A DNA stretch of 64,000 nt from Bacteroidota bacterium (GTDB lineage Bacteria > Bacteroidota > Ignavibacteria > UBA10030). The stretch covers positions 124,001 through 188,000 of the forward strand of contig JAOAFT010000002.1 in assembly GCA_026416125.1 (NCBI GenBank). Direction: 5' to 3'. The notes below the pieces were generated by a model, which had not been told where the DNA came from, did not search any database, and was given only the letters and a program-made list of their open reading frames with translations. Below, piece by piece: positions 1-38,513 of the stretch (within the stretch, counting starts at the first letter, position 1; the number at the start of each line of letters is the position of its first letter). The position numbers and the translations under genes are program-made.

Positions 1-1509
1 ATATGCTTGTCGTCCCCGGTGAAGCTCCTCTTTTACAAAAGCATACACTCTGGGTTTGTCTTGTTCAGTGCGAATTGCTGTTCGAATTGGTTTTCGATTG
101 CTTGGAAGTTCATCAATAATCGACACATCGAGATCGCCGTAGAGTGTCATGGCAAGGGTTCGTGGAATGGGAGTTGCAGTCATGACAAGCACATCAGGAG
201 ATGTACCTTTCTCTTTCAACATTGCCCGGTGAAGCACACCAAAGCGATGTTGTTCATCAATTATGACGAGTCCAAGATTGTGGAACTTAACACCTTCTTC
301 AATCAAAGCATGGGTACCTACTACGAGATGAGCTGTTCCATTGGAGAGTTCTTCCAAAAGTACTTCCCTCTCCTTTTTTCGTTGACCACCAATTAACAAT
401 CGGACTGAAACAGGGAGAGAGCTTAAGAATTGTCTTATTGTTTTGTAATGTTGCTCTGCTAATATTTCGGTCGGTGCCATAAACGCCACTTGTAAACCAC
501 TATCGATAGCCATAAGTGCTACGAGAAGTGCAACAATCGTTTTCCCACTCCCAACATCTCCTTGCAACAATCGATTCATTGGGTGAGGAGAGCGGAGATC
601 TGCAATAATCTCATGGAGTACTTTTTTCTGAGCAGAGGTCAATGTGAATGGAAGTGATTGAATGAGCAACCGTGGTAACAATGTTTCAGATTTATACTGA
701 ACTGTACGAAGCTCACGTTGTACAATAGCACGACGATAGGCAAAAAGAAGCTGTAAAAAGAACAATTCTTCGAATTTTAACCGGCGTTTCGCTTGTTCCA
801 ACTCTTCTAATGAAGAGGGAAAGTGAATTGCCCGAAGTGCGTCTGAACGGGGAATGAGAGAAAGTCGCCTACAGAGTTCATTCGGAAGTGTTTCTTGAAC
901 ATAGGGGACGTACTGAGCGACGGCAAAACGAATAACCCTCCGAAAACCACGACTATCTAAACCAACACGCTCAAGTTGAGCATTCGAACGGTACTTTGGG
1001 ATGATACCACCTGTGTTAAAAAGTTTTCCCCAATCTGGCTCATCTTCGTCCACGCGCTTCAAACGATCGAATTGTGGATGAACAAACTGCGGACGCCCAT
1101 ATTGATCGAATGTAGGTATAGCTGAGAGTGCTAATATCTCACCGAGTTCGAATGCGTCCTTATACCATTGCCATCCCTCAAACCATACGCATGTGAGGTA
1201 CCCGCTGACATCCTTCACTGTAAGAAAAAAAATCATTCGATTGGTTGTGCGAGCACGACGAGTTTCTGTTCTAAATACTTCAGCTATAACTGTGACTGGT
1301 GTACGATTGTGGATATGAAATGCAAGGTCCACAATTCGTACAATATGACTTCGATCGAGGTAACCTCGAGGATAATATTGAAGAAGATCCTCAAGAGTAG
1401 TAAGCCCCTGAGCTTGTAGCACAGCAGCTCGTTTCGGCCCAATTCCCCTAAGGTACTGGAGCGGTGTTCCCACAACTTCTTTTTGATCGGTCTGAATGGT
1501 TGATTTCAT
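1..1509 (-). CDS. recG: ATP-dependent DNA helicase RecG (3' part beyond the window)
   Basis: RecG is a cytoplasmic SF2 helicase that remodels stalled replication forks and branched recombination intermediates. The frame is open from an ATG at 1509 to base 1, so it is missing from the ORF track because no stop lies inside the window. I translated it from the reverse complement. It starts MKSTIQTDQK and continues with the helix-hairpin region (LRGIGPKRAAVLQAQGL), an OB-fold wedge domain (around residues 70-160), then the helicase core with Walker A GDVGSGKT, a DEAH-type box IIDEQHRFG and motif III MTATPIPRTLA. About 503 residues are visible; the second RecA-like domain is cut off. It is transcribed away from the small membrane protein gene at 1600. 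No frameshift was seen. Confidence 0.95.
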   Translation of the reverse strand, partial: MKSTIQTDQKEVVGTPLQYLRGIGPKRAAVLQAQGLTTLEDLLQYYPRGYLDRSHIVRIVDLAFHIHNRTPVTVIAEVFRTETRRARTTNRMIFFLTVKDVSGYLTCVWFEGWQWYKDAFELGEILALSAIPTFDQYGRPQFVHPQFDRLKRVDEDEPDWGKLFNTGGIIPKYRSNAQLERVGLDSRGFRRVIRFAVAQYVPYVQETLPNELCRRLSLIPRSDALRAIHFPSSLEELEQAKRRLKFEELFFLQLLFAYRRAIVQRELRTVQYKSETLLPRLLIQSLPFTLTSAQKKVLHEIIADLRSPHPMNRLLQGDVGSGKTIVALLVALMAIDSGLQVAFMAPTEILAEQHYKTIRQFLSSLPVSVRLLIGGQRKKEREVLLEELSNGTAHLVVGTHALIEEGVKFHNLGLVIIDEQHRFGVLHRAMLKEKGTSPDVLVMTATPIPRTLAMTLYGDLDVSIIDELPSNRKPIRTAIRTEQDKPRVYAFVKEELHRGRQAY

Positions 1510-1539
1510 TACTTCCAAGTGCAAAACATAAAAATTGCT

Positions 1540-1568
1540 TTGACTTCGTTGTGAATCTATCCTAAATT
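1540..1568 (+). promoter_or_regulatory. Candidate sigma70-type promoter for the 1600-2148 gene
   Basis: TTGACT (1540-1545) and TAAATT (1563-1568) are separated by exactly 17 bases, between the divergent recG start and the small membrane protein gene. The -35 matches the consensus at five of six positions and the -10 at four. Position and spacing support it; no transcript data are available. Confidence 0.45.
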
Positions 1569-1599
1569 TTTTAGCAACAAGGTGAAAGTATATATTTCA

Positions 1600-2148
1600 A
1601 TGAAAAAGATTCTCCTACACTATACACTCTTAACAACATTTGCAATTATTTGTGTTGGACAAGAACACCAACAAGTTCAAGTTGAAGAAGATACATTACA
1701 CTCTACTTGTAACGAACCACCAATTCCGATTATCTACTTCAACAACACTCTAAACAACACTCTAAAAGACACTCTCAAGGAGTCTCCTCATCTACGACAG
1801 TACCACGATTCGGTATTCCTTTCAGTAGGTCAACGACTTGACTCACTCCAGAACTCTCTTGAATACAAGAATTCTATTTTTATAACGGTTGCACTGGTTG
1901 CTGGGGGACTGGCCTTCCTTTCCATTCTGTTGACACTTATAATGTTCATAAAATTTCGACAACACTTGAACCCAGAAGCTTACGCTTTCACAATATTGAG
2001 TACCTCCCCCAAACAACAAGTAGAGGATCAACATTCACGCATACAGCAAACATATCAAGAACAGCTTCCATCTCCACAATCTTCCCCACAGAAACGGCAG
2101 TCCACAAAACGACGAAGCAAATCTTCTCCTTCAGCGGAGAGTGAGTAA
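1600..2148 (+). CDS. Hypothetical single-pass membrane protein with basic C-terminal tail
   Basis: Not recognised as a known family. The chosen ATG at 1600 (MKKILLHYTLL) gives a clean signal-peptide-like N-terminus; the upstream GTG at 1582 listed in the ORF track would put extra residues before it. GGTGAAAG at 1581-1588 can serve as ribosome binding site. The 182-residue product has an N-terminal hydrophobic segment, a polar extracytoplasmic region of about 70 residues containing the repeat-like stretch NNTLNNTLKDTLKE, one transmembrane helix (about residues 92-116, FITVALVAGGLAFLSILLTL) and a 60-residue tail rich in Q, S, P, K and R. Its 3' end overlaps that of the convergent lipoprotein gene by 18 bases. 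The tail could bind nucleic acid, phospholipid or another acidic partner, but that is speculation. Confidence 0.6.
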   Translation: MKKILLHYTLLTTFAIICVGQEHQQVQVEEDTLHSTCNEPPIPIIYFNNTLNNTLKDTLKESPHLRQYHDSVFLSVGQRLDSLQNSLEYKNSIFITVALVAGGLAFLSILLTLIMFIKFRQHLNPEAYAFTILSTSPKQQVEDQHSRIQQTYQEQLPSPQSSPQKRQSTKRRSKSSPSAESE

Positions 2149-3012
2149 TTTCTGTTTTGCTATATATCTCAACGTTGTATAAGGATGCTGTTGCAACAAC
2201 ATTTGATAGGCTGATTCAGCAAGAACACGATTTCCAACATGCTCGTAACATTGTCCAAGCATAAACAAAGCAGCATCGCGTTTATCTGAGGAGGGGAGCT
2301 GGATAACCGTTAGAAAAGATTGAATTGCTTTCGACACTTTCCCAAGTTGAAAGTAACAAACACCTGACCAAAAGTGACAATTATCTTTGAGCGATTCAGC
2401 GATAGTGCTACTCAGTAACACATTAAAAGCACCGAGGGCTCGTTCGTACTTCTTTTCTGTGTAGTATCGAAGTGCCTTTTCATATGTTACACTTTGATGG
2501 GACCGTTGCACTTCGTCAATTGGTTTTGCATCAACCCGTACAACTGCATGTTGAGCTGCCTGCACGTGGTGTGGATATTCTCGAGCTCGCTGTTGAAGAT
2601 TCTTGAGCTGTGTGATGTTATGACGGAGCTCTGTCAATATTTTCTCGAGCTTACTCTGCCATTGCCGTCGTGATTCGCGTTGAGGTACCTCCTGCTCGTT
2701 TAAGAACACTGCCTCGTGAATTGCAGTGCTCCTTTGCGAAAGCAACTGCTGAAGGTGCTGTATTTCTTTCGTTTGTTGTTGAACAAGCTCATATATGTTA
2801 TCGAGAAATTCCATTCTTGCTTCTATCAATTTTCGTGTTAGTAGTGAATAGTACTTACTCCTACCTAAGTTTTCTGTAAAATCTTCGTATGGAGTAAAGA
2901 AATCATCATTATGTCGCATTGGAGTTGGTATTGGTGAACATGAAAGAAAACATAGCACAGTGCTTATCGAGATGGCAATACTTCCATGAATGAAGTTCCT
3001 ATATGTTTTCAT
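2131..3012 (-). CDS. CpoB/YbgF-like TPR lipoprotein
   Basis: A probable envelope lipoprotein of the CpoB (YbgF) type, which in other diderms links the Tol-Pal system to cell-wall synthesis during division. The start at 3012 is chosen over 3027 because GGAGGG lies seven bases upstream of it. The N-terminus has a hydrophobic signal ending in a lipobox-like FLSC. A coiled-coil region follows (about residues 60-140, rich in Q, L and E). The C-terminal 130 residues carry tetratricopeptide-like repeats (YYTEKKYERALGAFNVLL, FWSGVCYFQLGKVSKAIQSF, LFMLGQCYEHVGNRVLAESAY). This order, coiled coil then TPR, is that of CpoB. It is the last gene of the leftward plsC-gatC-kdsB-pyrG run, 38 bases after pyrG. 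No tol or pal gene is in the window, so the functional name stays tentative. Confidence 0.7.
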   Translation of the reverse strand: MKTYRNFIHGSIAISISTVLCFLSCSPIPTPMRHNDDFFTPYEDFTENLGRSKYYSLLTRKLIEARMEFLDNIYELVQQQTKEIQHLQQLLSQRSTAIHEAVFLNEQEVPQRESRRQWQSKLEKILTELRHNITQLKNLQQRAREYPHHVQAAQHAVVRVDAKPIDEVQRSHQSVTYEKALRYYTEKKYERALGAFNVLLSSTIAESLKDNCHFWSGVCYFQLGKVSKAIQSFLTVIQLPSSDKRDAALFMLGQCYEHVGNRVLAESAYQMLLQQHPYTTLRYIAKQKLLTLR

Positions 3013-3050
3013 CAAGCATCCCTCCATTAAATATTGTCAATTTGTACAAA

Positions 3051-4703
<1,653 letters not shown>

Positions 4704-6995: not shown

Positions 6996-7068
6996 TGCCC
7001 CGTGGTGTAATTGGCAACACGTCTGACTCTGGATCAGAAGAGTCCAGGTTCGAACCCTGGCGGGGCAA
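6996..7068 (+). tRNA. tRNA-Gln (anticodon CTG)
   Basis: Full cloverleaf: acceptor TGCCCCG pairs with CGGGGCA, anticodon stem TCTGA/TCAGA encloses the loop CTCTGGA (anticodon CTG), and T stem CCAGG/CCTGG encloses TTCGAAC. The discriminator base is A. The 3' CCA is not encoded, as the next bases are CG. Confidence 0.95.
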
Positions 7069-7106
7069 CGACGTAAGAAGCTTGTTTTTTCACAAAATTC
7101 GAACAT

Positions 7107-7182
7107 GGCCCTATCGTCTAAGGGTTTAGGACGTGGCCCTCTCAAGGCCAAAATACGGGTTCGAATCCCGTTAGGGCTACCA
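7107..7182 (+). tRNA. tRNA-Glu (anticodon CTC), CCA encoded
   Basis: Acceptor GGCCCTA pairs with TAGGGCT (first pair G-T), anticodon stem TGGCC/GGCCA encloses CTCTCAA (anticodon CTC), and T stem ACGGG/CCCGT encloses TTCGAAT. The discriminator A is followed directly by a genomically encoded CCA. It lies 38 bases downstream of tRNA-Gln and is probably in the same transcript. Confidence 0.95.
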
Positions 7183-7297: not shown

Positions 7298-10200
7298 ATG
7301 GGTAGCGACTTACTAGAACAGCATTTACCTCACATTGGAAACTCAATTATACGTCAATCAATAAGTATCTATGACTGGAAATATCGTGAGTACTCACCAC
7401 ATGAATCACTTGCAACTGCTTCTTTGGATTCTCGAGGAACTTCAATTCGTATCCCTTTTGAATGGGCGAAACAAAAACCTATATGGATAAAGCAGCGCGT
7501 TATTATACCAGAATCTCTTGATCACTCGACAGTAGCTATTCGTCTGGGACTTCCATTTGGAATCGCTTGGGTCAATGGAATTCTCCGTCAAGCAATCAGC
7601 GAAACATCGAATTTGCTCTACCTCACATACGAAGCTCAAGCGAATCAAGAATTTTTCATTTCGATTTTTATAGAACCAACGCTCGATCAACATTCTTTTT
7701 ACTTCAAGAGTGCTGAGCTTCTCAGCGTCGATATCACAGCACGCAGACTGTACAACGCCCTGCTCATGCTCCGTGATGCCCAAAACACTTTAGATCCCCA
7801 TACCCCAGAGTCAAAAGCAATTCAAGACCTCATTCGTCGAACACTTGTATTTGTCAAGTACTTCAAACCAGGAAGTGAGGAATATCCAAATGCAATCAAA
7901 CGAGCTTATGCATTCCTTACCCGGACACTTGAATCAGAGTATAAAGCAACCATTCCAGCAACAGTCCATGTTGCCCTCTTCACAACTATCAATACACCAA
8001 TCCATTCATCCACTGAACACAACGCTAAACAAGTGCTGAAAAACTTTGCTTCACTCTCTCAAGTTATGGAAGAAAATCCAGAGGTTGTTGTTTCAATAGT
8101 TGGGGTAGATTGGTATCACACACTACGAAAGTATTTACCTGCTACTCATACTTATTTGAAGCGAATGGTTTTGGGTAAGCGTTTGATTGTCGTTGGGAAT
8201 GCACTATCACTCCGTGATTACCATCTCCATACAGATGAAGCACTTTTACGCCGCTTTCTCATTGAACGCAGTATTATGCAAAATGGTGAAACACTTGATA
8301 TCGAATACTTCTTCAACAATTCTACAAACACATCATTTCCGGCACTTCCCCAAGTCCTTTCACAACTTGGGTACAAAGGTATTGTACAAATTCACACTCC
8401 TGAAAATACCAGTGTGTTTCCATATTCCACTTTTCTATGGAAAGGATCTGATGGAACGACAATTCGAACCGTAACAACCCCTCCCCCGCACCCTTTAGAA
8501 CTTTCCTCTCGTGAGTTTCTCTCCGATGTTGAAGTTTTAACAGAAAATATTCAGGAAGGTACTTCATCGTTCTTACAACTCTATGATAGTACAACTGTTC
8601 AACATTCTCATATTGATAAACTCTATGTACTTAGAAACCTTCCTGGTTTGCCTTCTATAATTCTCTCATCAATTCACGAGTATTTTAAGTCATTCTCTTT
8701 GAACAATGAAAATCTGGAAAGTATACAGGACAAGGAATATAGTTCTTGCTGTACACCATTACCATACTATCCTTACAACCTCATAGCTGACATTCATACA
8801 AACGAACAGTTACTCATCCAAGCTGAACTCATTGCAGCACTTGCATCGGGGACATTAGCGAAGCGTTCCGCCTACAAATATCCGTTTGCACTTTTCGAAG
8901 AATGGTGGAAACAACACTTCTCTTCTCTGCTTGCGCACTTTGCAGAACGTACTGCTACACCAGAGCAATACACTGTACTCCGTGGAACTTACAGAAATCT
9001 TCAAAGCCACTGTATGGAAATAACTTCCAAAGCTTTTTCATACTTGCTCGAGAAAATACCAACTAAAAGTACTCGAACATATTGCACAATCTTCAATCCA
9101 TCACCATGGACACGAAGCGATTACGTAACTATTACACTACCAGAAAAGTATTCAACCGTCCATGTTACTGACGATAGGGGAAAAGTAATTGAGACCCAAA
9201 TCCTTACTACAAGTGTATGCAATACAACTGACATACTCTGTTACATCAAAGATATTCCTGCCTATTCAACGAAGACAATCATTATTGAACCATCATCAAC
9301 AAAGGAGACTACCCACAGAACGGACTGGAAATTTACAAGCAGGAGTGTTGAAACTCCTTGGTATGCAATTCGTTTCGACACGAAAGGAGCAATAACATCG
9401 CTCTATGCTAAACATCTCCGACGAGAACTCGTAGCAAATGGAAAAAAATTCAACCTTTTTAGAATTTTCCATGAAATCCAGAAATCACAAAGCGAAAACA
9501 CCAAGTTAAAAGCTCTCCATCCTGTTAGCATAACAATAAAAAATTTCAAAATTCTGGAAGCTGGACCACTCCGTGGAACACTATTGTTCGATTTAAAAGC
9601 TGAAAATCATACGTCACTTCATGTGTATCTTTTCTTCTACCATGCAACTCCACGAATCGAATGTAAAGTCAAGCTCCACTGTAAAGAACGCCATAGCCGT
9701 ATTGAAACATTATTTGCTCTTCATGCAACTGCTCCAACATTACGCTTCGGTGTACCATTCGGAACAGCTGTCATACAACCTACTTCCAAGAGAAATGAGG
9801 CAATCAAAGTACCAAATACCTGGATAGACCTTGTTGACAAATCGTTCGGTGTTTTGTTTAGTACTGAACACTTGGTTGAATTCTCAATAGAACGCTCAAC
9901 CGTAGCTTTTACCCTTTTGCAAACACATGCTGTACCTCGCCACGACAAATCCCATTCTTCAATTGATTTCACGTTCTATAATCTTGGAGAGTACACACTA
10001 CGGTATGCTCTCACACCGCATAAAGATCAAATAAGCAATTGGGAATTAATACGCGCTGCAGGAGAATTTCAAACACCTCTCGTGGTACTTCCAAACACAA
10101 AAGGACTCCTCCCAGTTCCATTGCTTACATTCAATAAAAACTCTATTCAAATCACATCCATTCACCGCATTGAAGATAACAACACATTTGTGGTGCGTTG

Positions 10201-10396
10201 TTATGAAACCGACGGAGTAGCGACAGAAACAACCCTCCGATCTCACCTCCCACTTAAAAGTGTCACTGAATGTACAGTTGCTAATGTACCACTGAAAGAA
10301 CACAGTGTTTCAAAGAACCACTGTTCACTTCGTTTTAAACCTTACGAGATTAAAACATTGAGAATTGTTGTGGATCAGAAACAGAAAAAACGATAG
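7298..10396 (+). CDS. Alpha-mannosidase (GH38)-like protein, apparently catalytically degenerate
   Basis: The 1032-residue protein follows the layout of bacterial GH38 alpha-mannosidases. It has an N-terminal beta domain (KPIWIKQRVIIPESL, ending with the G.AWVNG-like block), a central catalytic-type domain (about residues 220-400), a helical domain (about 490-580, ending near WWKQHFSSLLAHF) and C-terminal beta domains opening with TIFNPSPWTRSDYVTITLPE. Blocks such as FPALPQVLSQLGYKG and FLWKGSDGTTIRTVT match the family. The catalytic sites do not. The usual metal motif H-x-D-x-AWLW is replaced by FTTINTPIHSS, and the LPD-x-FG block with the nucleophile aspartate is replaced by EYFFNNSTN. I see this as a non-hydrolytic homologue, or one with changed chemistry. 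There is no signal peptide. It is monocistronic, convergent with the receiver gene, and has no clear ribosome binding site before ATG 7298. Confidence 0.7.
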   Translation: MGSDLLEQHLPHIGNSIIRQSISIYDWKYREYSPHESLATASLDSRGTSIRIPFEWAKQKPIWIKQRVIIPESLDHSTVAIRLGLPFGIAWVNGILRQAISETSNLLYLTYEAQANQEFFISIFIEPTLDQHSFYFKSAELLSVDITARRLYNALLMLRDAQNTLDPHTPESKAIQDLIRRTLVFVKYFKPGSEEYPNAIKRAYAFLTRTLESEYKATIPATVHVALFTTINTPIHSSTEHNAKQVLKNFASLSQVMEENPEVVVSIVGVDWYHTLRKYLPATHTYLKRMVLGKRLIVVGNALSLRDYHLHTDEALLRRFLIERSIMQNGETLDIEYFFNNSTNTSFPALPQVLSQLGYKGIVQIHTPENTSVFPYSTFLWKGSDGTTIRTVTTPPPHPLELSSREFLSDVEVLTENIQEGTSSFLQLYDSTTVQHSHIDKLYVLRNLPGLPSIILSSIHEYFKSFSLNNENLESIQDKEYSSCCTPLPYYPYNLIADIHTNEQLLIQAELIAALASGTLAKRSAYKYPFALFEEWWKQHFSSLLAHFAERTATPEQYTVLRGTYRNLQSHCMEITSKAFSYLLEKIPTKSTRTYCTIFNPSPWTRSDYVTITLPEKYSTVHVTDDRGKVIETQILTTSVCNTTDILCYIKDIPAYSTKTIIIEPSSTKETTHRTDWKFTSRSVETPWYAIRFDTKGAITSLYAKHLRRELVANGKKFNLFRIFHEIQKSQSENTKLKALHPVSITIKNFKILEAGPLRGTLLFDLKAENHTSLHVYLFFYHATPRIECKVKLHCKERHSRIETLFALHATAPTLRFGVPFGTAVIQPTSKRNEAIKVPNTWIDLVDKSFGVLFSTEHLVEFSIERSTVAFTLLQTHAVPRHDKSHSSIDFTFYNLGEYTLRYALTPHKDQISNWELIRAAGEFQTPLVVLPNTKGLLPVPLLTFNKNSIQITSIHRIEDNNTFVVRCYETDGVATETTLRSHLPLKSVTECTVANVPLKEHSVSKNHCSLRFKPYEIKTLRIVVDQKQKKR

Positions 10397-35075: not shown

Positions 35076-36749
35076 GTGTTACTAGACAATATCACTCAAC
35101 AATCAGATCTTACTACTAATACATTGTTAAGCAAACTTAGCGAACAAAAGTGGAATTTACTATTATTGTTCGTATTTGTATTCGGATTATTCTTACGACT
35201 TTCAATTGCTTTTAGAGATATAACTACAATTGATAGGTACTTTATCCCAGATGATACCTACTACACTCTTGCACTTACACGATCACTTGCTGAAGGAAAA
35301 GGACCAACCATCGACGGTATTATACGTACTAACGGTTTCCAACCTCTACTAGCTTTTTTACTCGTTCCGTTTGCAAAGATTACAACAAATCCAGATACAT
35401 TACTTCGTATTGACATAATCCTGCTTTCTTTTATTGACAGTGGTATTATCGTTTTATTAGGATTATTAGCCAAACGAATCTTTTATAACTCACCTAACTA
35501 TTACTCCCTTGCTATAGCTTTTGCTTGGTCTATTAGCTCTGTCGGAATTTCTAATGCTTTAGGAGGTTTAGAAACTTCTCTAGCAGTATGTCTTGTATTA
35601 CTTTTCGTCGAAATTTGGTTGCGTGCGATAGAAAATACTAACAACCGATTATACATTTTCGCAGGTATTATTGCCGGATGTTCCCTCCTTGCACGAATCG
35701 ATACATGCTTTACACTCGGAATCATTGGCTTCTATGAACTAGTCTCTAGAAAACGGATAAAACAACTTTTTATTACTGTTATAACAGCGATCATTGTTGT
35801 TTCCCCCTGGTGGCTCTATCAGATAGTTTATTTCAATACAATAATACCTGAAAGTGGTGAGGCTGTCCAAACACAGGCATACCTTCATCAAATCATGTAC
35901 TTAAAGAAAACGCACCAAGTTGCTTGGGCATTTGGAACATTACTCGATTTTCTGACTGGAGAACTTTTTTATATCCGTAGTATATGTTTCCAGTTTCCAT
36001 ATCTTACCTCAGTATTGTTCTTAGTAACAACGACACTTTTCATTATCTTCCTAATAAAGAAAATTATAAACACTGAAAATGGAGCTCCTATTTTCCTTTA
36101 CATACTTTCTGCGTTCATTCTTTGTTGGTTTTATGCTCTTTATGTCCCAGCTGTATGGTTCTTTACGCGATACTTAGCTACAACACAAACCGCGACACTT
36201 CTTTTACTCGTTGTTGGAATAAAAAAAATCACTAATTATACCCGAACTACTGCTGTAATCGAAAAATGCTTTATCATGTTTACTATACTTTTTTCTGCAT
36301 TTAATGTATACCAAAATATTAACTACCTATTTGTTACCCCTACTTCAAGTAAAAATTACGGCTTATTAGGAGCAAAAGGTTACCGACTCCCTGCTCTACA
36401 AATACTCTCACAGGCCCCTATTAATTCAGTTATTGGTGCTTTTCAAAGCGGTGCATTAAGTTACTATGCTCCAATATTCAAGAAAAATATTACAATAATA
36501 AACTTAGATGGCGTTGTAAACGGTGAATCAGCTCAGGCTCTAAAGAACTACAAACTTTCTGACTATGCCAGAAAAAGAAAATTAACTCATTTTGCTGATT
36601 GGGAGTTCAATAAATATATGTTCATTCTACGTTCCGGTGAACCAGGATACATAATGAGTATTCTCACAGCTGTTGGTTTTGCGGAACCCCAATATCCTGC
36701 ACACATTAAAGCAAACGATTACTTTGTACTGTATGAATTAAAATGGTAG
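35076..36749 (+). CDS. GT-C type membrane glycosyltransferase (ArnT/PMT-like)
   Basis: A 557-residue protein with about 10-12 hydrophobic segments. The first extracytoplasmic loop carries an acidic pair, IDRYFIPDDTYYTLALTRSLAEGKGPTI, in the position of the catalytic aspartate of GT39/GT83 enzymes that transfer sugars from polyprenyl carriers. A small C-terminal soluble domain follows. The GTG start has only a weak ribosome binding site. The gene looks more AT-rich than its neighbours (two rows counted by hand gave 27 and 33% GC, against 45% in a row of add). It forms a pair with the next gene. Confidence 0.7.
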   Translation: MLLDNITQQSDLTTNTLLSKLSEQKWNLLLLFVFVFGLFLRLSIAFRDITTIDRYFIPDDTYYTLALTRSLAEGKGPTIDGIIRTNGFQPLLAFLLVPFAKITTNPDTLLRIDIILLSFIDSGIIVLLGLLAKRIFYNSPNYYSLAIAFAWSISSVGISNALGGLETSLAVCLVLLFVEIWLRAIENTNNRLYIFAGIIAGCSLLARIDTCFTLGIIGFYELVSRKRIKQLFITVITAIIVVSPWWLYQIVYFNTIIPESGEAVQTQAYLHQIMYLKKTHQVAWAFGTLLDFLTGELFYIRSICFQFPYLTSVLFLVTTTLFIIFLIKKIINTENGAPIFLYILSAFILCWFYALYVPAVWFFTRYLATTQTATLLLLVVGIKKITNYTRTTAVIEKCFIMFTILFSAFNVYQNINYLFVTPTSSKNYGLLGAKGYRLPALQILSQAPINSVIGAFQSGALSYYAPIFKKNITIINLDGVVNGESAQALKNYKLSDYARKRKLTHFADWEFNKYMFILRSGEPGYIMSILTAVGFAEPQYPAHIKANDYFVLYELKW

Positions 36750-36788: not shown

Positions 36789-38513
36789 ATGAAAATAATA
36801 TCTACACATTCTTATACCATACTAATAGCTATCTTTATACTTGCCATTATAATACTACCAACCCTTTCTTATGTTCTCACTCTAACGAACAATACATTCG
36901 TCTATGCACTTGACGACACATACATTCACATGGCAATGGCAAAAAATTTAGCGCTCCATGGAGTTTACGGTGTAACACAGTATGAATTTAGCTCTGCATC
37001 CTCGTCACCATTTTGGACCGTTTTACTCGGAGGCCTCTACAGTATCTTCGGAGTTTCTGAATATACTCCCTTCATCGTCAATGTTGTCTGTGCTGTTGCT
37101 ATCATCATTCTTCTCCAGAGAATTTTATCAACGCGTGGAGTATCACCATTTATCGTTACTCTTGTCCTCTTCTTCATTATTCTTGCAGCACCAATGAATG
37201 CACTCATCCTTATGAGTATGGAACACGTACTTCAAATTTTGCTGGTGCTCTTGTTTGTGTGGTACTTCCTTAAAATCCTTGATACACCTCCTTCTACAGC
37301 GGTGCTTTGGAAACTAGCCCTCTGCACAGCACCTCTCGCACTTACACGTTTCGAAAGCTACTTCCTGTTTCTCATCAGCGGTTTTCTCCTTATGTTCAAA
37401 AAACAGTGGAGAGCAGTACTTATACTCTTCATTAGCGCTGTTGTTCCATTACTAATCTTTCAAATCATTTCAGTAACTCATGGGTGGTTTCTGCTTCCTA
37501 ACCCAGTACTCATTAAATCACACACAACTGGTTTTCCTAATTACTCACATCAATTTTTTTCATCCCTTGGCTCTATTCTCCAAGGTGCTGAGTACTACAT
37601 GGCAAATGCACTCGAGAATTATTATCAAGCAGAATACATCGTTTTCTTCGTAGGCTACGCAGTAATTCTAAGCATTGTTCTTACAGTGTACTATAAAACA
37701 TTAAACACTCCTACAAATCTTCTCCTCATTATGTACATCTTCCTCACAGTGCTCCATATACTCTTTGCACGGTTCGGTGCATACTTCCGCTACGAAGCAT
37801 ACCTTATCGTTCTTGGTATTGTTGTCCTCAGTACCACTCTTCCAGAACTCATTACCGTTCTCAAAGCATGGAGTATACATCCTGCGCTTAAAGCATTTAT
37901 TGTACTCATTGGCATTTACTTTTCTATCCCAAGCTTTACCGGTGTTATCAAACGAGCAAAAACAGACCTCCTGTTCACTCCACTAACCTCTCGAAACATT
38001 TACGAGCAACAGTATCAAATGGCACGATTTCTAAAGAAGTACTATAATAGTGCAACTGTAGCACTGAACGATATAGGTGCAGTTACGTACTACAGTGATA
38101 TTCGATTAGTTGATGTTGTCGGTCTCGCTAGTGTGGAAGTACTGCGTTTAGCAGCTGATAAGAACTATACAACAGCAGAACTCTATAAACTGTGCAAATC
38201 AAAAGATGTGGATATTGCTATAGTCTATGATGACTGGGTACGATTAAACTTTTTCCCACCACCTCCACCCCAATGGAAAAAAATTTGTTACTGGAAAATT
38301 CCCTACAACGTTATCTGTGGTGATTACATTGTTACTTTTTATGCTGTAAAAGAACATGAGGTCGACTTACTACGGAAACGCATAGAAGAGTTCTCACCGG
38401 AATTACCTCCGACCGTGAAGGTTGAGTTCGTTGATGAACACTTATCCCCACCGAAGGATGAATTCCCCTACAACAATGAAACGCGTGCTCAGATGTACAA
38501 CGTTTACTATTAG
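36789..38513 (+). CDS. GT-C type membrane glycosyltransferase-like protein
   Basis: A 574-residue polytopic membrane protein with the same general plan as the preceding one: N-terminal helix, an extracytoplasmic motif YALDDTYIHMAMAKNLALHG with an aspartate pair, a stretch of about ten helices, and a soluble C-terminal domain (about residues 400-574). The two proteins are clearly different in sequence. A shared role in cell-surface glycan or glycoprotein assembly is likely, but donor and acceptor are unknown. Gap to the previous gene is 39 bases. Confidence 0.68.
   Translation: MKIISTHSYTILIAIFILAIIILPTLSYVLTLTNNTFVYALDDTYIHMAMAKNLALHGVYGVTQYEFSSASSSPFWTVLLGGLYSIFGVSEYTPFIVNVVCAVAIIILLQRILSTRGVSPFIVTLVLFFIILAAPMNALILMSMEHVLQILLVLLFVWYFLKILDTPPSTAVLWKLALCTAPLALTRFESYFLFLISGFLLMFKKQWRAVLILFISAVVPLLIFQIISVTHGWFLLPNPVLIKSHTTGFPNYSHQFFSSLGSILQGAEYYMANALENYYQAEYIVFFVGYAVILSIVLTVYYKTLNTPTNLLLIMYIFLTVLHILFARFGAYFRYEAYLIVLGIVVLSTTLPELITVLKAWSIHPALKAFIVLIGIYFSIPSFTGVIKRAKTDLLFTPLTSRNIYEQQYQMARFLKKYYNSATVALNDIGAVTYYSDIRLVDVVGLASVEVLRLAADKNYTTAELYKLCKSKDVDIAIVYDDWVRLNFFPPPPPQWKKICYWKIPYNVICGDYIVTFYAVKEHEVDLLRKRIEEFSPELPPTVKVEFVDEHLSPPKDEFPYNNETRAQMYNVYY

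Follow-up and report, generated by a model that had tools for sequence, protein, structure and literature searches.

The closest described relatives of the protein examined here are the cytosolic GH38 alpha-mannosidases of the Ams1/MAN2C1 type (6LZ1, 7VQO, 5JM0), in which a jelly-roll, a helical bundle, a barrel, a three-helix bundle and beta domains follow one another in this order. In S. pombe Ams1, zinc is bound by H290, D292, D402 and H615; D402 is also the nucleophile, D493 is the acid/base, and W295, Y460 and D616 are substrate residues (PMC7609781). A jelly-roll N-terminal region is typical of tetrameric Ams1-type GH38 proteins, and the four-helix bundle is the tetramer-contact domain in Ams1 (PMC7609781). 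Full-length bacterial GH38 structures are represented by Bifidobacterium longum Bl_Man38A/B/C (7UFR, 7UFS, 7UFT), whose PDB entries name them alpha-mannosidases, one entry being a nucleophile-mutant mannose complex. Glycoside hydrolase homologues kept without catalysis are described for beetle GH28 polygalacturonases (PMC6549527) and heparanase-2 (PMC12406646), which belong to other families and hosts than the GH38 protein studied here. The beetle cases come from multigene families, whereas the present gene is single-copy with no active paralogue in its genome. A full-text literature search for GH38 pseudoenzymes found none, which is not proof of their absence.

The window, a 64,000-nucleotide stretch from a member of the Ignavibacteria, carries a GH38 gene (Table 1) whose frame runs from ATG to stop without an internal stop and is open in the assembly too. 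Matches to Pfam GH38N (1.1e-10), GH38C (9.4e-11) and GH38C2 (2.2e-12), each above the curated cut-offs, make GH38 homology significant along the length of the protein. The top PDB sequence matches are yeast Ams1 enzymes (E=2e-14). An AF2 model (pLDDT 81.9, pTM 0.81) matches Ams1 over the whole chain with a Foldseek TMq of 0.77, and Bl_Man38A with 0.75, so that Ams1/MAN2C1 is the best match in both sequence and fold, and both Pfam domains and fold place the protein in the GH38 family. Helices 146-164, 170-187 and 196-213 follow the N-terminal strands of the model; the model and the full-length Ams1 match indicate the extra N-terminal jelly-roll and four-helix bundle of the Ams1/MAN2C1 type. These findings agree with the preliminary description, which had reported the blocks FTTINTPIHSS, EYFFNNSTN and FNPSPWTRSDY within an alignable GH38 homologue, and had argued from the complete 1032-residue frame against simple decay; no recent frameshift or stop has turned the gene into a pseudogene.

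Inspection by eye revealed no signal peptide at the N-terminus (MGSDLLEQHLPHIG...), a lack shared with Ams1/MAN2C1, and this type of N-terminus is common to the orthologues, unlike several GH38 paralogues in orthologue-bearing genomes that begin with a hydrophobic leader. The cytoplasmic location proposed earlier is graded as probable. No other GH38 was found in the assembly (2.4 Mb, 98.65% complete). Genes for tRNA-Gln and tRNA-Glu lie directly upstream on the same strand (window 6996-7182, +).

Catalytic positions were mapped by reference to SpAms1 and 21 orthologues with largely intact catalytic blocks. All four zinc ligands are replaced (H290 by T230, D292 by N232, D402 by S342 and H615 by A546), which places S342 at the nucleophile position, and the substrate-binding residues W295 and D616 correspond to I235 and H547. 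Four residues are missing from the acid/base loop GYGDGGGG, and with them the D493 column, the exact gap placement being an alignment call. Unlike Ams1/MAN2C1 and the B. longum enzymes, the protein thus has neither a zinc tetrad, nor a nucleophile Asp, nor an acid/base Asp, and by residue content it is non-catalytic. The absence of the metal site, first noticed in the sequence, is confirmed by this mapping: the modelled fold is that of GH38, and the His/Asp/Asp/His tetrad is replaced.

Table 1. The GH38 gene and its segments, in window coordinates.
Feature	Position	Strand	Evidence
GH38 pseudoenzyme gene, 1032 aa + stop	7298..10396	+	ORF, Pfam, orthologues, AF2 model, Foldseek
N-terminal helix and jelly-roll region, residues 1-175 (approximate boundary)	7298..7822	+	PMC7609781 domain order, model secondary structure
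Four-helix-bundle segment, residues 176-222; 12/14 conserved columns kept	7823..7963	+	Alignment; role from PMC7609781
Degenerate alpha/beta barrel (former catalytic domain), residues 223-475; 20/70 conserved columns kept	7964..8722	+	Alignment
Former zinc/substrate block, HIDTAW to TINTPI, T230..I235	7985..8002	+	Alignment
Former LPDTFG nucleophile block, N340-T345, D402 to S342	8315..8332	+	Alignment
Former GYGDGGGG acid/base loop, residues 425-436; 4 residues deleted, as in G003	8570..8605	+	Alignment
Three-helix bundle, residues 476-590; 9/27 conserved columns kept	8723..9067	+	Alignment
Former ELYLEKHRGTYTT motif, replaced, residues 479-492; K479, E480, S482, P492 derived, common to G003	8732..8773	+	Alignment
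Former HD zinc/substrate pair, A546-H547; H547 common to G003	8933..8938	+	Alignment
C-terminal beta domains B1-B3, residues 591-1032; core apparently under purifying selection	9068..10393	+	Site tests; Pfam GH38C, GH38C2

A GH38 match is present in 31 of the 32 genomes of the family, and an orthologue of the cytoplasmic type in 29, being absent from three. Such orthologues (for example L013 of G009 and L004 of G029) are about 26-32% identical to the window protein over the full length, with equal length and a similar N-terminus. Unlike the window protein, most of them keep an intact site (HID/AWLW, LPDTFG, FHD, GDGGGG). A second GH38 type, about 24% identical and in several cases with a leader-like start, replaces or accompanies the orthologue in some genomes. 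Outside the family, only 1 of 66 genomes of the order gave a match at E<=1e-40.

The sister of the window copy (L001) is L002 of G003, a genome of a different genus (SH-aLRT 100). L002 is dead as well, with the loop deletion of the window copy; the two proteins have in common 31 residues absent from every intact orthologue, among them H547 and, within a motif that is otherwise conserved, K479, E480, S482 and P492. The gene order GH38-CheY-NapH-DUF362-BioY is common to both genomes, in which the neighbouring proteins are 50-59% identical. The shared deletion, the shared derived residues, the synteny and the tree make it very probable that the two genera had a common ancestor in which catalysis was already gone. 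The nucleophile Asp survives in G003, which indicates that losses went on separately after the split. Long-branch attraction between L001 and L002 was rejected because the tree is in accord with synteny, deletion and derived residues, and L002 still adjoins the g4 clade when L001 is left out. Genome-contig scans for closer relatives found only G003 and g4 relatives. The preliminary description had raised the question of whether relatives carry the same substitutions; G003 does, being dead with the same deletion and residues, but most family orthologues are intact, so that the loss is common to two genera and was later deepened.

Because the closest available relative is only 32% identical, dN/dS was unmeasurable, and it was replaced by tests of neutral stops (by simulation), codon usage, core hydrophobicity and column retention. 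Neutral drift to 45% identity yields 20-46 in-frame stops (20 simulations), whereas none is observed. Codon usage of the gene matches that of its neighbours (RSCU r=0.85). The hydrophobicity test considered all-hydrophobic core columns that have changed in the window protein and is independent of the catalytic columns. Outside the barrel and three-helix bundle, 62 of 70 such sites are still hydrophobic, compared with a neutral 45-58% (p=2.4e-8). Inside these two domains the count is 38 of 59, which is not above the 58% one-step expectation. Conserved columns are likewise retained more often outside (82/144) than inside (29/97; p=4e-5), with 22 of 26 kept in the four-helix-bundle segment plus B1, and L002 exhibits the same pattern (115/144 versus 49/97, p=3e-6). 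Domain boundaries in these site tests are approximate, and part of the retention contrast is expected from the loss of catalysis, since active-site residues are over-represented among the conserved barrel columns.

The hydrophobicity and retention results indicate that constraint has left the catalytic domains and now lies on the non-catalytic ones. On this indirect showing, the N-terminal, four-helix-bundle and C-terminal beta domains appear to be under purifying selection, and the barrel and three-helix bundle appear to drift. That selection still acts on the gene, as supposed at the outset, is borne out by the lack of stops and by the hydrophobic core. In having a homologous fold, lost catalytic residues and signs of selection (indirect ones, not dN/dS), the protein qualifies as a pseudoenzyme.

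The main rival explanation is slow decay, in which function was lost in the ancestor and the gene, under weak or declining selection, is heading to loss, its frame being kept either because a misfolded 110-kDa protein is toxic or because decay on this branch is recent. Unique changes number 239 in the window copy and 91 in G003 (chi2 66), an approximately three-fold acceleration that is specific to the GH38 gene and to the window lineage: among the neighbours, the corresponding counts are even for the NapH-like (53/62) and DUF362 (45/34) proteins and mildly uneven for BioY (31/15). Genome-wide fast evolution was rejected on the equal rates of the NapH-like and DUF362 proteins and on the ordinary branch of PyrG. 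The branch comparison (2.55 versus 0.70), a barrel core near neutral expectation and the three family genomes that lack the orthologue also fit slow decay. Part of the protein is indeed decaying, to judge from the relaxing barrel and three-helix bundle and from the acceleration, which barrel relaxation explains in part. However, tens of stops would be expected and none is present, core hydrophobicity outside the barrel is strongly retained (p=2e-8), and the dead state, in a 2.4 Mb genome, has outlasted the divergence of two genera. We regard slow decay as unlikely.

The reading that we favor, and consider somewhat probable, is that of a cytoplasmic GH38 pseudoenzyme kept as an oligomeric scaffold while its barrel relaxes. 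A cytoplasmic GH38 of the Ams1/MAN2C1 type would no longer hydrolyze mannosides; catalysis would have been lost in the ancestor shared with the G003 genus, and a folded non-catalytic protein would then have been retained. Both dead proteins give confident GH38 models. The four-helix bundle, with its conserved contact domain, may give an Ams1-like oligomeric assembly, perhaps a D2 tetramer, and the beta domains may hold a putative partner, making the protein a scaffold or binding platform. It is unlikely to serve an active GH38 of the same cell as regulatory subunit, there being no second GH38 in the assembly.

Such a role may already exist as a second function in active orthologues, which would explain why the site is lost repeatedly and the gene is not. 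Of 30 orthologues, 5 (L001, L002, L015, L022 and L008) lack one or more metal ligands. In L015 (G020, 1495-4614), from another genus, the four ligands have become R, S, G and R in an independent loss, and its barrel is less conserved than the remainder. L022 (G030, 1495-4617) has only the nucleophile changed from D to N, with the other mapped catalytic residues intact, and is thus a natural nucleophile mutant; L008 (G004) has only the fourth His changed to N. These single-residue cases come from one MAG each, in which sequencing error is possible. The losses need four changes on the orthologue tree, and on this count metal ligands were lost at least four times in the orthologue group. In addition, L012 and L016 (loops GYPNEGGG and GYSNEGGG) and L025, in which the W295 and D616 positions are also changed, have the acid/base Asp replaced by Asn with metal ligands intact. 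None of 11 second-type GH38 proteins has lost a metal ligand, a contrast to the orthologues that is not significant (p=0.30). We tentatively raise the possibility, held with less confidence than the scaffold reading itself, that, across this Ignavibacteriae family, the cytoplasmic GH38 also serves in oligomeric scaffolding or partner binding, a second, non-catalytic role that outlives mannosidase activity, catalysis having been dropped at least four times with the gene kept, and selection in the window copy falling almost wholly on the non-catalytic domains.

A different fate for the emptied pocket would be conversion into a novel active site without metal, or into a lectin-like one, formed by derived residues shared with G003 (N242, K248, S431, K479, E480 and H547). 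These polar residues do sit in the former catalytic domains, and other GH families include pseudoenzymes that have taken on different roles, as in beetle GH28 (PMC6549527). Yet the barrel and three-helix bundle are the least constrained part of the protein, with which new pocket chemistry fits poorly; loops 233-238 and 479-486 have pLDDT <50, which does not suggest an organized pocket; and the losses extend to W295, D616 and the ELYLEKHRGTYTT motif. New chemistry or glycan binding in the pocket is accordingly improbable. The preliminary description had offered glycan binding or scaffolding by a non-catalytic protein; the non-catalytic and scaffolding parts stand, whereas glycan binding is the less likely of the two functions because these substrate-binding residues are gone. 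It is very improbable that the protein is still a metal-dependent GH38 with ligands from other positions, for although the fold is retained and H547 adjoins the lost H615 position, H290, D292, D402, H615 and the acid/base loop are all replaced and no alternative tetrad is conserved in G003.

If the scaffold reading is correct, an annotated alpha-mannosidase amounts to a natural knockout of its chemistry, and the coexistence in one family of sites that are intact, lost in part or lost altogether would show a route from glycosidase to structural protein. It would also call for caution in inferring the breakdown of mannan or N-glycans from matches to GH38 domains in metagenome-assembled genomes.

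Intact orthologues often adjoin sodium:solute symporter and amidohydrolase genes and, in some genomes, glucosamine-6-phosphate isomerase-like genes. The only close orthologue outside the family in the order (L060 of G055, another family) lies between genes for a GHL10 hydrolase and NanE (ManNAc-6-phosphate epimerase), and was possibly transferred together with a sugar-catabolic operon. These neighborhoods suggest a role in sugar catabolism. None of these sugar-related neighbors is near the window copy, and for the symporter the window genome holds no more than distant homologues (27% identity). Elsewhere in the window, two adjacent genes (35076-36749 and 36789-38513, +) encode proteins of 557 and 574 aa that are rich in hydrophobic segments; with no Pfam match at 1e-5 for either, they look like GT-C-type membrane glycosyltransferases.
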